Positions 710 to 4,864 of a stretch of 64,000 nt of DNA are shown here, one piece after another. The number at the start of each line of letters is the position of its first letter. Position 1 is the stretch's first letter. The notes under the pieces are model-generated. The model had not been told where the DNA came from, searched no databases, and saw only the letters and a program-made list of their open reading frames with translations. The translations under genes were made by a program, and so were the position numbers. Source of the stretch: Deltaproteobacteria bacterium (GTDB lineage: Bacteria; Desulfobacterota; Binatia; UBA1149; JAJCZL01); NCBI GenBank assembly GCA_029262415.1, contig JAJCZL010000046.1, positions 1 through 64,000 on the forward strand, in the 5' to 3' direction.

Positions 710-717
710 ACGTTTAC
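710..717 (+). repeat. Left target-site duplication ACGTTTAC
   Basis: Eight bases directly outside the left terminal inverted repeat. They recur in the same orientation at 4857-4864, directly outside the right terminal repeat. An 8-bp duplication is the length generated by IS1595-family transposases. Confidence 0.9.
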
Positions 718-741
718 GGTGAGTGTGTACTTGATGAAAAC
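718..741 (+). repeat. Left terminal inverted repeat of transposon
   Basis: 24 bp starting GG and identical, in reverse complement, to 4833-4856. No further pairing extends inward beyond the final AAAAC. Confidence 0.92.
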
Positions 742-785
742 TCGTATGTAGGGGCTCTGCACTTGAGTGCGATAAAGTAGCGGTT

Positions 786-974
786 CTACTTCTTGGCGGG
801 TTTCTTTGGCGGGTCGCCGGGCTGCCAATCGGGCGGCATCGCGGGCTTGCGTAGGGCACGCTTCACCAACCCTTCCCAGTCGGGGTCATCAGATTTCACC
901 CGGTCTGGTTCTGGGCCTGGGGGACTCGACGGCACACCTGCCTTAGTCGGTGTCTGATTCTTCCCTCTGGGCAC
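786..974 (-). CDS. Small hypothetical protein, transposon cargo
   Basis: 62 residues, Pro- and Lys-rich, with the central segment DPDWEGLVKRALRKPAMPPD and a basic PPKKPAKK tail. It starts inside the last codons of the winged-helix gene (32-bp overlap), so the two are probably co-transcribed and translationally coupled. No domain is recognised. The composition (charged, low complexity at both ends, one amphipathic helix in the middle) fits a small partner or regulatory peptide, but that is inference. It is the last gene before the left end of the element. Confidence 0.5.
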   Translation of the reverse strand: MPRGKNQTPTKAGVPSSPPGPEPDRVKSDDPDWEGLVKRALRKPAMPPDWQPGDPPKKPAKK

Positions 975-1755
975 GAAGTTCCCCTAACTCATCGTCGAGC
1001 TGATCCAAGCGCCTGTCACGTCCTTGGTACTCTCGTTCAGCATCAGCGCACTCCTGATCCGGATACGCATCTTTCGCCGTCTCTAGGTATTTCTCCAGCT
1101 TTTGTATGCATTGCTGGGTGACGACACCACGGAACGCTAAGCTAACACTGCAATCAGGAGAAAGCCTGTAGGTTGCGCTTTCGCTCACTTGGTCGCTCGG
1201 GGGCACGGGCGGCGTAGAAAAAGCCGGTACTGAATCACTTTCCGTTTTGTTCACTTGTCCGTCTACGTCCTTGTTAGAGTCGGAGTTAGAGTAGCCGACA
1301 TCTCGGAGTTCTTCAAGGCGAAATGTTTCTCGAAACGCCTTTACGCACGCCTTCGCTCCGGCCTGAGAGAAGCACTTCTCGGCGACCAGGTGGGCCGTTA
1401 GCGTTGAATCTGATGCGCTGCCATGGGTCTTACGGAGTTCTCGAAACAGGGCCGGAGCGAGGCCAGCTTCCACTATCGCCTGGGCGCGTTCTTTTGATCC
1501 AGCGGGGTAGGTGAGCGCCTTAATAGCGCGGTCCGAGATCCGGAGCCCATTGCCTGCACTCTCTACCAGTCCATACTTCCGTAAACCGGCAACGCGAGTC
1601 CGCGCCGGGCCACTGGCACTCTTATAGCCGAGCGCTACACACATCTGTTCGATCGGCAGCGCTGTGCGTTCGTCGGAGTCGAAAATCAGCTTCGCATCCG
1701 CCAATGCTTTCGGGAGCGAGACCTGTGGGTAATTGGGGCTTCGAGTCTTAGCCAT
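943..1755 (-). CDS. Winged-helix-like protein, transposon cargo
   Basis: 270 residues. Residues about 10-95 (ALADAKLIFDSDERTALP, then GYKSASGPARTRVAGLRKYGLVE, ISDRAIKALTYP) look like a winged-helix/DUF5343-type DNA-binding domain: a short helix, a recognition helix following S-G-P-A, a Gly-rich wing and a second helix. Residues about 150-195 are a Ser/Asp/Pro-rich linker. Residues 195-235 (ATYRLSPDCSVSLAFRGVV...) form a short beta-rich segment often seen at the C-terminus of such mobile-element proteins. The end is a charged coiled coil. The likely role is DNA binding, perhaps regulation of the element, but no function is shown. It has its own promoter, and the start codon follows the -10 region by only about five bases. 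Confidence 0.7.
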   Translation of the reverse strand: MAKTRSPNYPQVSLPKALADAKLIFDSDERTALPIEQMCVALGYKSASGPARTRVAGLRKYGLVESAGNGLRISDRAIKALTYPAGSKERAQAIVEAGLAPALFRELRKTHGSASDSTLTAHLVAEKCFSQAGAKACVKAFRETFRLEELRDVGYSNSDSNKDVDGQVNKTESDSVPAFSTPPVPPSDQVSESATYRLSPDCSVSLAFRGVVTQQCIQKLEKYLETAKDAYPDQECADAEREYQGRDRRLDQLDDELGELRAQREESDTD

Positions 1756-1760
1756 GGAGT

Positions 1761-1791
1761 ATTACTAGCACCCATTGAGTTAATTTGTCAA
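1761..1791 (-). promoter_or_regulatory. Putative promoter of the winged-helix gene
   Basis: On the minus strand a perfect -35 box TTGACA (1786-1791) is followed by a -10-like TAGTAAT (1761-1767). The ATG lies only five bases further on, with no room for a ribosome binding site, so the transcript would be nearly leaderless. The -10 match is weak. Confidence 0.45.
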
Positions 1792-2035
1792 GTTGCGCCC
1801 AACATCGGTGAGTTGTTTTTTGCCTTACAGCCTAAAAACGCCTTGACGAAACGCCTCGGGTGTGGTTTTCTATCGGAACCCATCGATGCCGGGGACGACG
1901 GAGGCCCACGCGATGGAAGAGGATTTAGGATGAGAAGAGAAAAAGGGCTGGCTCAGCGGCCCACCAAAAAGCAACAGCCAGGTGACCGCTCGTTACGTTG
2001 TCAACCTGGCCGTTGGCCTGAGACCCCCCCCTTTT

Positions 2036-2101
2036 GGGGGTGTATGGTAGACCCAGGGCGTTGGAGTCTTTCGGTCGGGGGTTCGATTCCCCCCATCTCC
2101 A
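2036..2101 (+). ncRNA. tRNA-like / tmRNA-end-like sequence
   Basis: The 3' part GTCTTTCGGTCGGGGG, TTCGATT, CCCCC, CATCTCCA has the form of a tmRNA 3' end: a TTTCGG(A/T)C lead-in, a T-arm of five G-C pairs closed by TTCGATT, then the 3' acceptor strand. The 5' GGGGGTG at 2036-2042 can pair with CATCTCC (two G-U pairs) to make a 7-bp acceptor stem. Only about 34 bases lie between stem and T-arm, with no clear D-stem and a poor anticodon stem. It is therefore neither a full tmRNA nor a normal tRNA; CCA is not encoded (the next bases are GAG). It could be an internally deleted ssrA, a degraded tRNA, or an attachment-site relic. GGGGG can also pair with the C-run at 2024-2031. The rest of 1792-2187 shows no gene. 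Confidence 0.5.
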
Positions 2102-2187
2102 GAGGGATTCCCGCAGCCGTGCGCAACAGCGTACACCGACGGAAAGGCTACGTCCACCGTCGGCTGACCTCTAGGAGTTAGTAGATT

Positions 2188-2379
2188 ATGACAAGGAAAC
2201 GACCAACAAGTGGACCAAAGACGAGGCCGATAGGCCGAGACTCAAAAACGGGCGAGTTCATCCCGGTGGCTGAAGCCCGCCGCCGCCCCGCAACTACGTT
2301 AGTAGAGCGGGTGCCTAAGCCTGGCTACGGAGATACCGGCAGTGGCCGCAAGCCGACGGGAGGTCGGAAAAAAGGCTAG
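2188..2379 (+). CDS. Small basic hypothetical protein, transposon cargo
   Basis: 63 residues, strongly basic, with the core RDSKTGEFIPVAEARRRPAT followed by TLVERVPKPGYGDTGSGR. Small proteins with an R-D-S-K-T-G-x-F-x-x-x-x-x-A...P-x-T-T-x-x-E-x-V core are common hypothetical proteins in Proteobacteria and on mobile DNA; their function is unknown. An AGGAG at 2172-2176 lies upstream of the ATG with somewhat long spacing. It reads toward, and overlaps by four bases, the converging 84-residue gene. The disordered, basic sequence would suit a nucleic-acid-associated peptide, but that is inference. Confidence 0.65.
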   Translation: MTRKRPTSGPKTRPIGRDSKTGEFIPVAEARRRPATTLVERVPKPGYGDTGSGRKPTGGRKKG

Positions 2380-2630
2380 CGGCTCGCTAGCTCCCTAACA
2401 TCGACAATGGCGGCCTCGGGGATACTGAGGTCGCCGTTGCCGTAGGGCGATGTGCCGACCGACTCGTCTCCACTTATATGGGGCACGATCACTTTGTAGC
2501 CGTTGCCCTCGGTGAGCAGCCAGCCTACGGAGCGACACCGAACAGACTCGCCATCCTCTTTGATCTCACTGAGTTTGCGCCATCCGTCGCCGCTGTGGGA
2601 ATCCAACCACTCGATCATGACGAGCTTCAT
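2376..2630 (-). CDS. Hypothetical protein coupled to transposase
   Basis: 84 residues, acidic, beginning MKLVMIEWLDSHSGDGWRKL and continuing with a short beta-rich pattern (VRCRSVGWLLTEGNGYKVIVPHISGD). The ATG overlaps the transposase stop (ATGA, 2627-2630), so the two genes form an operon. Sequences of the type EWxDSxxxxGW...GWLLxEDxxxxxVxPH are common in phage and plasmid hypothetical proteins; I recognise the type but know no function. The coupling to the transposase makes a role in transposition or its control possible, though unproven. Confidence 0.7.
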   Translation of the reverse strand: MKLVMIEWLDSHSGDGWRKLSEIKEDGESVRCRSVGWLLTEGNGYKVIVPHISGDESVGTSPYGNGDLSIPEAAIVDVRELASR

Positions 2631-3634
2631 CCTGCCTCCGTTCCGTAGCGATAGCGCAGCCGTTTGCCATCTGCTGCTTTGAGGACACTCGCTACTCGTT
2701 GTCCGTCACTTAGATGTCGTCGGCTGTACCGGAACTCAAACTCGCTCACGTACCTGTGCAGGTGCTCCCGGCTAACAGCGTGAAAGGTGCCGTTCAGGCC
2801 GCGCTTTAGCAGGGAGAAAAACCCCTCGACCGTGTTCGTCGTCACGTCGCCACGACCGTATTCCTTGCGTGTATGCTGCACCGTTTCGTGACTTGCATAG
2901 TCTTTTCCGATGGAGTGATAAGCCCGCAATTCATCGGTCATAAGGCGCGCCGACAATGCAATATGGCCGTCCATTACCGCCCTTAGGGTCTTGGAGGTGA
3001 CTTCGGTGACGACGCGAGCGCGAACACGGCCCCCGCGCTCAACCATGGCCACAACCGGAGTTTTCTCGTTGCGGAGCTTCCCGCGCCAACTCCGCATCAT
3101 CAGGCCGCGTTCGATGTGGCCGTGGGCCGCGCAGAACTTTGGGAACTTCGCATGGCGCGGCTTGCCGCCTATGTATGTCTCGTCAACTTCGACAATACCT
3201 TCGAGCGGCGTTGTGTCCGACCCGTTTGCTGGTGCCATCGCATAGCGAATCCGGTGCATCATGAATAGGGCCGACTTGTAGGAGAGGCCGGTCTGACGCT
3301 TGATTTCCAGGGCCGAGACGCCCTTCTTGCTCGTGCAGGCGCGCCAAAAAGCGTAGCACCAGTGCTGGAGCGGGATGCGGCTTTCCTCGAAGACGGTGCC
3401 AGTACGGACGCTGTACTGCTTCTTGCATCCCCGGCAGCGCCAGCGGAATGAAGCCTCGCGCTCGTCGGTGCCGCGTTTCTTCATTTGGTAAACGTCCTGG
3501 TCGCCACATCGCGGGCAGGCCGGTGTGTCGTCCCAGCGCTGCGCCTCCATGAACTCGACCGCCTTGGTTTCATCGGCGCAGGCCACTGGCAGCGCCGTTA
3601 CGATTTCGTCCTTATCTCCAGCAACCTTAGCCAT
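2627..3634 (-). CDS. IS1595-family transposase (ISXO2-like DDE, zinc ribbon)
   Basis: 335 residues. A zinc ribbon is formed by C40-x2-C43 and C67-x2-C70 (CPRCGD...CRGCKKQY), followed by the typical SVRTGTVFEESRIPLQHW segment and a helix-turn-helix-like region. The ISXO2-like catalytic domain shows VDETYIGG with Asp151, LMTDELRAYH with Asp234, and VTTNTVEGFFSLLKRGLNG with Asn267/Glu270 and Lys277, the DDN(E/K) arrangement of this family. Length is normal and the frame is intact. It should cut and join the terminal inverted repeats of the surrounding element. It is preceded by a strong sigma-70-type promoter with almost no leader, and its stop overlaps the start of the next gene. Confidence 0.93.
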   Translation of the reverse strand: MAKVAGDKDEIVTALPVACADETKAVEFMEAQRWDDTPACPRCGDQDVYQMKKRGTDEREASFRWRCRGCKKQYSVRTGTVFEESRIPLQHWCYAFWRACTSKKGVSALEIKRQTGLSYKSALFMMHRIRYAMAPANGSDTTPLEGIVEVDETYIGGKPRHAKFPKFCAAHGHIERGLMMRSWRGKLRNEKTPVVAMVERGGRVRARVVTEVTSKTLRAVMDGHIALSARLMTDELRAYHSIGKDYASHETVQHTRKEYGRGDVTTNTVEGFFSLLKRGLNGTFHAVSREHLHRYVSEFEFRYSRRHLSDGQRVASVLKAADGKRLRYRYGTEAG

Positions 3635-3641
3635 GTTTGTC

Positions 3642-3670
3642 TTTATACTTGATGCAAATACTTAAGTCAA
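3642..3670 (-). promoter_or_regulatory. Sigma-70-type promoter of the transposase gene
   Basis: On the minus strand: TTGACT (3665-3670), a 17-base spacer, TATAAA (3642-3647), then seven bases to the ATG. Both boxes match the consensus at five of six positions with ideal spacing. The transcript would start at or next to the start codon, so translation is likely leaderless. Confidence 0.75.
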
Positions 3671-3877
3671 TTGCAGTATTAGGTTTGATAAACACAGGAA
3701 CTTGAGTATTCGCTACGGATGTGAGTAGGCTCGCGCAATTATCTGGCACAATGGGAGTGCCAGGGCGTAGAGGTGTATCCGCGGGTATGCACGCAGGATC
3801 GACAGCCGTATTGCAAATTGCTGTTAACAAGTTCGGACGTTCTCATGAGCACCGGACTAGCTGGCGAGGGGCACGGC

Positions 3878-4075
3878 ATGGGCACAATGAGAGAAGCTGA
3901 AAACGAAGTTAGAGACGACGAGCCTCGTCCGATCTACATCGGTGATGAGATTGCCGGCTGTATAGACGACGATACGTACCAGGAGTACAACTACCCGGAC
4001 AACGGTGTGCCGGACCTCGGCACTAAGTCGCTCACGATGGAGACCTCGATTCTGGCCGTTCAACGCGATGGGTAA
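3878..4075 (+). CDS. Small acidic hypothetical protein, transposon cargo
   Basis: 65 residues from an ATG preceded by GAGGGG (3866-3871, six-base spacing). The frame stays open further upstream, to 3773 and 3845, but those starts lack a ribosome binding site. The sequence is acidic (NEVRDDEPRPIYIGDEIAG, then DDDTYQEYNYPDNG) and has no recognised domain. It lies between the divergently transcribed transposase and the 190-residue gene. A small hairpin, CTGGCAC-7-GTGCCAG, occurs at 3743-3763 in its upstream region. Reality of the gene rests only on start context and codon use. Confidence 0.4.
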   Translation: MGTMREAENEVRDDEPRPIYIGDEIAGCIDDDTYQEYNYPDNGVPDLGTKSLTMETSILAVQRDG

Positions 4076-4202
4076 GACCACCAACGCGACCTGACGGATC
4101 GATCTCCCGATAAGACTCCGTATTAAGTTTGCTGCACCCTACTCGGGGGTGTTCGGTTTGTCGCTGTGTTAGGGGTGATCCTCCTGCGGCGAGAGGTATG
4201 GG

Positions 4203-4775
4203 GTGTTTAAGATCACCGGACAGACACTCGCGGAAATCCGCGAGGACTACGGCCAGTTTAAGGTATTCTTCCACGCCTATTCCTGGCATGTCGCTTTCAG
4301 TGGGGCGAAGTTCGTACCAGCAATCTCCGGTCGGCGGCTCCGTGACGCTCATACATTCTGGATCAACGACCTGAAGCGTCTAGCTTTGTCTTTCAAGGAC
4401 ACCGGGCGGACGCCGGACTACTACAAGCAAGCAGCCCATTTAGCGTACTGGTTGCGCCGACAGAATCCGGTCACTAGCTACCGAGACGGATTCAACCCAC
4501 AGGACGGGGGCTCAGATGGCCCAACGGTGCATGAGTCCGAAGTTAGGGAACTGCTACGCAAGTATGGCGGTGAGTTCCTGGCGTTCGACCTCGGCTTCCA
4601 GATTTGTGACTTCTACGAGCGAATGAATCTGACCAATGGCAAGACCGAGCCACCACCAGCCTTCAAACTAGACAGGGATTACATCAACACGATGGTGTAT
4701 TTCTTGAAGACCAAGAACGTCTCCCCGCACGCGCTGTTTCTAGTTTACAAGGCACTCTTCTTCCGAAGATATTAG
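4203..4775 (+). CDS. Hypothetical protein, transposon cargo
   Basis: 190 residues from a GTG start with AGAGG upstream. Sequence features: an N-terminal segment ITGQTLAEIREDYGQFKVFF; a helical region with FWINDLKRLALSFKDTGRTP and AAHLAYWLRRQNPV; a central polar linker; and a C-terminal helical part (LLRKYGGEFLAFDLGFQICDFYERM, then MVYFLKTKNVSPHALFLVYKALFF). No signal peptide or clear membrane segment is seen. I do not recognise a family. It is the last gene before the right end of the element and, with the winged-helix gene, the largest passenger. Confidence 0.7.
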   Translation: MFKITGQTLAEIREDYGQFKVFFHAYSWHVAFSGAKFVPAISGRRLRDAHTFWINDLKRLALSFKDTGRTPDYYKQAAHLAYWLRRQNPVTSYRDGFNPQDGGSDGPTVHESEVRELLRKYGGEFLAFDLGFQICDFYERMNLTNGKTEPPPAFKLDRDYINTMVYFLKTKNVSPHALFLVYKALFFRRY

Positions 4776-4832
4776 GCTAGTCGAATTAGCGGACCTAAAC
4801 TATCCACCCAGGTTGGGGTCCTGCCTCTTTCC

Positions 4833-4856
4833 GTTTTCATCAAGTACACACTCACC
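4833..4856 (-). repeat. Right terminal inverted repeat of transposon
   Basis: Exact reverse complement of 718-741 over 24 bp. Confidence 0.92.
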
Positions 4857-4864
4857 ACGTTTAC
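4857..4864 (+). repeat. Right target-site duplication ACGTTTAC
   Basis: Direct repeat of 710-717. Beyond it, 4865-4985 contains no gene but has an inverted repeat ATTGCCGG (4914-4921) / CCGGCAAT (4961-4968), upstream of the sigma-54 promoter, where an enhancer-binding protein site would be expected. Confidence 0.9.

Follow-up and report, generated by a model that had tools for sequence, protein, structure and literature searches.

The 64,000-nucleotide stretch analyzed here (the window; positions 1 to 64,000 of contig JAJCZL010000046.1, assembly GCA_029262415.1, from a Deltaproteobacteria bacterium) contains, at positions 710 to 4,864, an intact transposon of the IS1595 family. The clade to which it belongs is distinguished by a tRNA gene that most members carry inside the transposon ends. 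The fold of this tRNA is conserved, it has leucine identity elements, and its anticodon, in most cases UGG, does not match them. Codon 16 of the transposase gene is fixed as CCA in the clade members with a UGG tRNA and a proline at this position, CCA being the codon that anticodon UGG reads, and the remaining conserved prolines tend not to be encoded by CCA. From these sequence features we tentatively propose, with a confidence that stops just short of even, that the clade carries an identity-swapped tRNA, mostly leucine-type with anticodon UGG, that misreads transposase codon 16 as leucine. Held slightly less firmly is the wider proposal that this transposon family may control its own transposase by directed misreading (UGG with CCA at codon 16, UGC with GCA at codon 99) and would represent a self-contained sense-codon recoding system moving between phyla.

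tRNA genes inside the transposon ends

Genome contigs, whole genomes and viral contigs supplied relatives of the transposase. The boundaries of each element were set by matching ends together with matching 8-mers. The clade was defined by a transposase ~44% or more identical to that of the window, and IS1595 elements at 34–42% identity served as distant controls. Terminal inverted repeats and the 8-bp target duplication are shared by 33 relatives. A tRNA gene lies inside the ends of 25 of the 34 complete, duplication-flanked clade elements (L015, L016, L018, L033, L036–L039, L042, L095, L097–L099, L101–L105, L112, L114, L125, L126, L227, L230 and L231); two have only a short tRNA-like structure (the window element and L123), and seven have neither (L043, L094, L096, L107, L113, L120 and L228). 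ARAGORN combined with a T-arm scan detected a tRNA in none of the 45 delimited distant elements, a few of which are near-duplicates, and the same procedure recovers tRNAs in 22 of the 34 clade elements. One distant element (L209) has a short G3:U70 structure. Across the clade loci, ARAGORN found 22 tRNAs in 112 kb inside the elements versus 7 in 347 kb outside them. Host integration scars were ruled out as an explanation, since these tRNAs are enclosed by the inverted repeats and their identities are mismatched, in contrast to the ordinary tRNAs found outside.

Among the hosts that the records name are Phycisphaerales, a further planctomycete, a hydrogenedentote and an Acidiferrobacterales genome. 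The tRNA can stand on either side of the transposase gene, most commonly tail-to-tail with it (12/28). Protein passengers change from one element to the next (HTH-IrrE, Panacea, methyltransferase-like as judged by eye, and others); the recurrent companion of the transposase is the RNA gene, which a preliminary description of the window had overlooked.

Some passengers recur in particular settings. In L039, L095, L100 and L102, a gene of the HTH-IrrE type precedes the odd tRNA on its strand, ending ~10–35 nt away from it in an operon-like arrangement. Passengers with a Panacea/SocA antitoxin domain occur in L015, L040 and L099 (and in L036 by sequence similarity), and next to the Panacea gene L015 and L099 have another small gene in common, perhaps its toxin partner.

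Identity of the tRNAs

Leucine identity in bacteria involves A73, A15–U48, G18G19, A20a and a large variable region, and proline identity includes G72, G15:C48, G35, G36 and G37 (PMC9976931). The 29 class II tRNAs of the relatives all have A73, A14–A15 and U48, the 15:48 pair being A:U throughout, together with a long variable arm, which measures 15–20 nt in 19/29 and 30–50 nt in 10/29; the longest tRNA reaches 119 nt. A15–U48 thus stands in place of the proline determinant G15:C48 in 29/29, and G72 is present in 6/29. Their anticodons are UGG (23), UGC (4), UUA (1) and AGG (1), with no leucine anticodon among them, and the leucine body is retained where the anticodon is UGC, AGG or UUA. Pairing is complete in the acceptor stem (203/203) and T-stem (145/145) and nearly so in the anticodon stem (143/145), for a total of 491/493 cells, and several pair types occur at most stem positions (up to five per position). 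This near-complete pairing with varied pair types indicates that the cloverleaf is under selection. The anticodon loop is a regular 7-nt loop with U33 in most of these tRNAs. The clade tRNAs are, to judge from these determinants, mostly leucine-type bodies with a mismatched, mostly proline anticodon, and the annotation of genomes that harbor such elements probably includes 'tRNA-Pro(TGG)' entries that do not represent proline tRNAs.

Other types are found as well: L034 and L040 have Cys-like (U73) tRNAs with anticodon CGC, and L097 has a Ser-type (G73) tRNA with UAG. Target codons were sought for the CGC tRNAs and the UAG tRNA and none was convincing, these samples being too small.

The leucine-type tRNA of L015 (2495–2613, minus strand) has a 50-nt variable region, and its 119 nt are far beyond the usual class II size. 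In L103 (6097–6181, minus strand) the leucine-type tRNA with anticodon UUA resembles a natural ochre suppressor within a transposon; a search for its target codon gave none. In L103 (6020–6181, minus strand) and in L018 (4204–4371), a few nucleotides separate a class II tRNA from a short tRNA-like RNA with G3:U70, and the two short RNAs have the loop text GCACCTG in common.

A matching codon in the transposase

Pro16 lies in the transposase motif LPxACxDE. In the initial comparison of 27 transposases, 25 encode it by CCA (p = 6.5e-12); no other of the 117 conserved columns shows codon conservation of this degree, the runner-up reaching 1e-4. The prediction fixed before fresh loci were opened held, with L227, L230 and L231 combining a UGG tRNA with CCA and L228 combining the absence of a tRNA with CCT. 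When elements with Pro16 are considered, CCA is used in 24/24 of those with UGG, and the non-UGG elements comprise 7 with CCA and 4 with another codon (Fisher p = 0.0063). The losses among these 11 elements are found in L103 (UUA; CCG), L122 (AGG; CCC) and two elements with no tRNA, L113 and L228. L015, a sister of L122, has UGG and CCA.

Two more patterns suggest a special reading of the matching codon. At conserved prolines other than Pro16, the transposases of UGG elements use CCA in 7/111 cases versus 62/181 at variable prolines (odds ratio 0.13, p = 1.3e-8). In the controls the odds ratio for CCA avoidance is 0.56 (distant elements) and 0.58 (non-UGG clade members), neither being significant, and the A-ending codons of Ala, Gly, Val and Thr, together with CTA, show at most a weak trend toward avoidance at conserved sites. 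The elements with a UGC tRNA have Arg or Lys at position 16 but use GCA at Ala99 in 4/4 cases versus 2/21 UGG elements, a match drawn from four related sequences. Their subclade also includes L096, which has no tRNA and uses GCG at Ala99, and L114, which has a UGG tRNA and uses GCT there.

In the AlphaFold2 model, residue 16 falls midway along a confidently predicted helix (residues 10–20) ahead of the zinc ribbon. Pro16 would be expected to bend this helix, and Leu16 would be expected not to.

Proposed mechanism and its alternatives

We suggest that the core of the clade consists of the transposase gene and an identity-swapped tRNA gene, with protein passengers that are changeable. Leucyl-tRNA synthetase does not use or need the anticodon, and for this reason the host enzyme is proposed to charge the leucine-type UGG tRNA with leucine. 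The leucylated tRNA would compete with the host tRNA-Pro(UGG) at CCA codons, and the selected target would be the transposase of the element itself, at codon 16 in the helix just before the zinc ribbon; a fraction of the transposase would then carry Leu16 in place of Pro16. The dosage of the tRNA, hence the copy number of the element, would set the ratio of the two transposase forms. Their benefit may be dosage control of transposition, which is our preferred guess. Charging, misreading and the effect on transposition are what we infer from the features described above.

Several observations weigh against this proposal. The main gap is that Leu is found at position 16 in no homologue, the residues other than proline being Arg, Lys, Asp and Gln; nor is Leu enriched at the CCA columns of the transposases. 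CCA16 is kept in seven elements without a UGG tRNA, including the window element, which has no full UGG tRNA and whose own tRNA-like structure has an ambiguous anticodon. L114 combines a UGG tRNA with Arg16, the UGG tRNAs of L105 and L230 have a short variable arm and are not leucine-type, and the transposase of L103, the element with the UUA tRNA, has no in-frame TAA. Corrected for phylogeny, the association between tRNA and codon is not significant in what is an underpowered comparison of four well-supported independent pairs, and a label-shuffle test (0/300) ignores kinship and is not relied on. Two related schemes were ruled out. Simple self-recoding, with CCA where homologues have Leu, does not agree with the location of CCA at the conserved Pro16 or at tolerant sites and with the lack of Leu enrichment, and ochre readthrough in L103 would yield extensions beyond TAA that are short and resemble nothing conserved.

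The tRNAs might instead be a general mistranslation or toxin-like cargo that acts on the whole host proteome (for addiction or stress tolerance) and is checked by neighboring regulators, CCA16 being a feedback sensor or a by-product. The HTH-IrrE genes just before the tRNA in four elements and the Panacea genes in others fit such a cargo, as do the UGC, UUA and AGG variants, which would strike many host codons, and a link to mistranslation or toxin–antitoxin systems has been suggested for odd allo-tRNAs (PMC7609411). However, many elements have the tRNA without such regulators, and a proteome-wide effect does not account for the fixation of a single transposase codon alongside the avoidance of CCA at other conserved prolines. 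We consider this explanation unlikely. The avoidance of CCA at conserved prolines also counts against a supply tRNA that is proline-charged after all and secures CCA decoding in the transposase in foreign hosts. Although UGG predominates and CCA is elevated at the variable prolines of UGG elements, the proline identity pair G15:C48 is missing in 29/29 and G72 in 23/29 (PMC9976931), and prolyl-tRNA synthetase would no longer recognize tRNAs whose anticodon has switched to UGC, AGG or UUA; a supply role is very unlikely.

Quite unlikely, too, is a non-decoding role, in which the tRNAs would be structured regulatory RNAs (for processing, termination, or binding of the transposase or a synthetase) and codon 16 would be constrained otherwise, for instance by a translational pause. 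The very long variable arms, the short G3:U70 structures that lack a proper anticodon arm and the seven elements that keep CCA16 without a UGG tRNA are consistent with it, but the regular anticodon loops and the tracking of the transposase codon by the anticodon type in two groups of elements argue for decoding.

The window element and its short RNA

The preliminary description had presented the window element as an IS1595-family transposon with cargo, and the ends, the duplication and the profile matches of the transposase support this (Table 1). The inverted repeats are complementary at 24/24 positions and are flanked by the two copies of ACGTTTAC; a joint search for matching ends and matching 8-mers around the transposase returned one pair only, 718–741/4833–4856. 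The single IS1595-type transposase matches PF12762 (E = 1.3e-41), PF12760 (E = 7.7e-10) and the NCBIfam IS1595 model (204.6 bits, cut-off 75), and DDE fold relatives were found for it. With a DDE transposase carrying a zinc ribbon, terminal inverted repeats and an 8-bp duplication, the element is an IS1595 transposon with passengers. It lies upstream of P-II/glutamine synthetase genes. Its perfect ends and its duplication would fit the earlier suggestion of recent mobility, but it is single-copy in its own 3.9-Mb, 83-contig genome.

Table 1. Features of the window element (positions in the window)
Feature	Position	Strand	Basis or remark
Target duplication, left copy ACGTTTAC	710–717		8-bp match outside the ends
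Left terminal inverted repeat, 24 bp	718–741	+	
Passenger frame, 62 aa	786–974	−	Pro/Lys-rich tail weakly similar to frames in L014, L016, L018, L032, L034, L039
Passenger frame, 270 aa	943–1755	−	No family match; no relative found
Short tRNA-like/tmRNA-3'-end-like RNA, 66 nt	2036–2101	+	Rfam, ARAGORN; same architecture in L035
Passenger frame, 63 aa, motif RDSKTGEFIPVAEARRRPATT	2188–2379	+	
84-aa frame coupled to transposase stop	2376–2630	−	ATGA overlap
IS1595 transposase, 335 aa, zinc ribbon and DDE domain	2627–3634	−	Profile matches, AlphaFold2 model
Transposase codon 16, CCA (Pro)	3587–3589	−	Codon invariant in clade members with UGG tRNA
Internal copy of terminal-repeat core TACTTGATG, upstream of transposase start	3646–3654	+	Read from sequence
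Possible passenger frame, 100 aa	3773–4075	+	Coding status uncertain
Passenger frame, 190 aa	4203–4775	+	No family match
Right terminal inverted repeat, 24 bp	4833–4856	−	
Target duplication, right copy ACGTTTAC	4857–4864		8-bp match outside the ends

In the window copy, the place of the tRNA is taken by a short tRNA-like RNA of predicted alanine identity. Its score with the Rfam transfer-messenger RNA (tmRNA) model RF00023 is 36.3 bits (E = 3.9e-12), below the gathering score of 47, and ARAGORN labels it 'tRNA-Ser(gga)'. The acceptor GGGGGUG/CAUCUCC is paired at 7/7 positions and includes G3:U70, an alanine determinant; A73, a UGGU segment and a UUGGA loop are also present. The T-arm matches the 3' end of the host tmRNA at 24/25 nt. 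A tmRNA was ruled out because the score is sub-threshold, only the tRNA-like ends align and the tag frame is absent; the real ssrA of the host sits on another contig. The function of the RNA is uncertain because its loop allows either GGA or UGG as the anticodon, its anticodon stem is poor and its fold is not clearly more stable than shuffles (z −0.97). A pairing of GGA with a serine codon was rejected: Ser118 is encoded by TCC in the window and in L035, but this is in any case the most frequent codon there.

For the window copy only, it is a serious, if minority, possibility that the RNA is an inert fossil derived from either a tmRNA 3' end or a former tRNA, the element then being an ordinary IS1595 transposon with passengers of no known family. 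The defects of the anticodon arm, the ambiguous anticodon, the z value and the lack of an encoded CCA tail would all agree with such a fossil. However, the seven acceptor pairs and five T-stem pairs are all intact, and the architecture and UUGGA loop recur in L035, from a genome of the same host family, whose transposase is only ~54% identical to that of the window.

Relation to known systems

Mistranslating tRNAs are known in bacteria. The proposed misreading would provide a set of candidate mistranslating tRNAs with a defined home (a transposon) and a candidate target (one transposase codon), and their function could be tested with one reporter and one point mutation. The closest relatives of the elements themselves are the passenger-carrying IS1595 members (tIS), such as tISCpe8 and MTnSag1, with ~25-bp inverted repeats and 8-bp duplications (PMC5704250, PMC12561309). 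These are alike in having a DDE transposase (PF12762/NF033547) with an N-terminal zinc ribbon and in allowing passengers, whereas the clade described here has a recurrent tRNA or tRNA-like gene inside the ends and a transposase codon that matches the anticodon. In the open-access literature we found no report of a recurrent tRNA inside IS1595 ends or of a matching transposase codon; odd tRNAs near transposons have been hinted at there, but without a link to IS1595 or a codon target.

Allo-tRNAs (Mukai et al., 2017, as reviewed in PMC7609411) likewise combine an anticodon with a mismatched identity. Alanine identity conferred by G3:U70 and an ochre anticodon occur among them, and in Edaphobacter an allo-tRNA pseudogene overlaps a transposon-related open reading frame. 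Their acceptor branches are of the 8/4 or 9/3 type and their identity is mostly that of serine tRNAs, whereas the clade tRNAs have leucine identity, a defined transposon home and a 7/5 branch, their 7-bp acceptor and 5-bp T-stem being fully paired in 29/29. The tRNA-ProX of Streptomyces and Kitasatospora, which has proline identity with Ala, Asn or Thr anticodons and a dedicated synthetase, ProRSx (PMC11415595), is also a dual-identity bacterial tRNA family expected to mistranslate; unlike it, the clade tRNAs have leucine identity and mostly a proline anticodon, lie within transposons, and have no synthetase gene noted with them. In CUG-clade yeasts, tRNA-Ser(CAG) underlies a genome-wide code change (PMC11415595). 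There, too, a sense codon becomes ambiguous through a swapped anticodon that the synthetase, blind to this part of the tRNA, tolerates, but the clade tRNAs would be element-borne and aimed at one codon. As far as the open-access literature showed, no transposon carrying its own decoding RNA is known. Self-recoding, if true, would be of a new kind, in elements that are otherwise IS1595 with passengers, and would amount to a natural and compact device for recoding a sense codon, as well as a new self-limiting route for a mobile element.

Passengers and other features

The 84-residue protein that had been described as coupled to the transposase is so by its overlap with the transposase stop. The passengers gave nothing above cut-off in Pfam or NCBIfam and nothing in PADLOC, in line with the earlier view that they have no recognized function, and known families and defence genes were ruled out on these grounds. 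The same three resources give no support to the call of a winged-helix protein for the 270-aa frame, of which no relatives were found in the viral contigs searched. The notion of the cargo as an accessory or regulatory module is likewise unsupported because the long passengers have neither a family match nor clear relatives in the other 35 elements compared.

The internal TACTTGATG sits, as judged by eye, inside a TTGACT-17-TATAAA promoter on the minus strand, and L101 has a similar repeat-like stretch upstream of its transposase. The presence of the terminal-repeat core at this site makes self-repression by the transposase possible. The left end of the window element is adjoined by a 41-bp tandem repeat (4.3 copies, 388–561) and 17-bp repeats (664–709). 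A distant IS1595 element from a SAR202 genome (L023, 7005–7191, minus strand) has two further tRNA-like sequences, and the acceptor stem of one of them is apparently extended. Fragments resembling a tmRNA 3' end and ending in CCA occur in L115 and L116 (genome G532), with no clade transposase found nearby, and are possibly integration scars. Plasmids from Alteromonas, Hymenobacter, Paracoccus and others contain the motif of the 63-aa frame at sites that bear no annotation.

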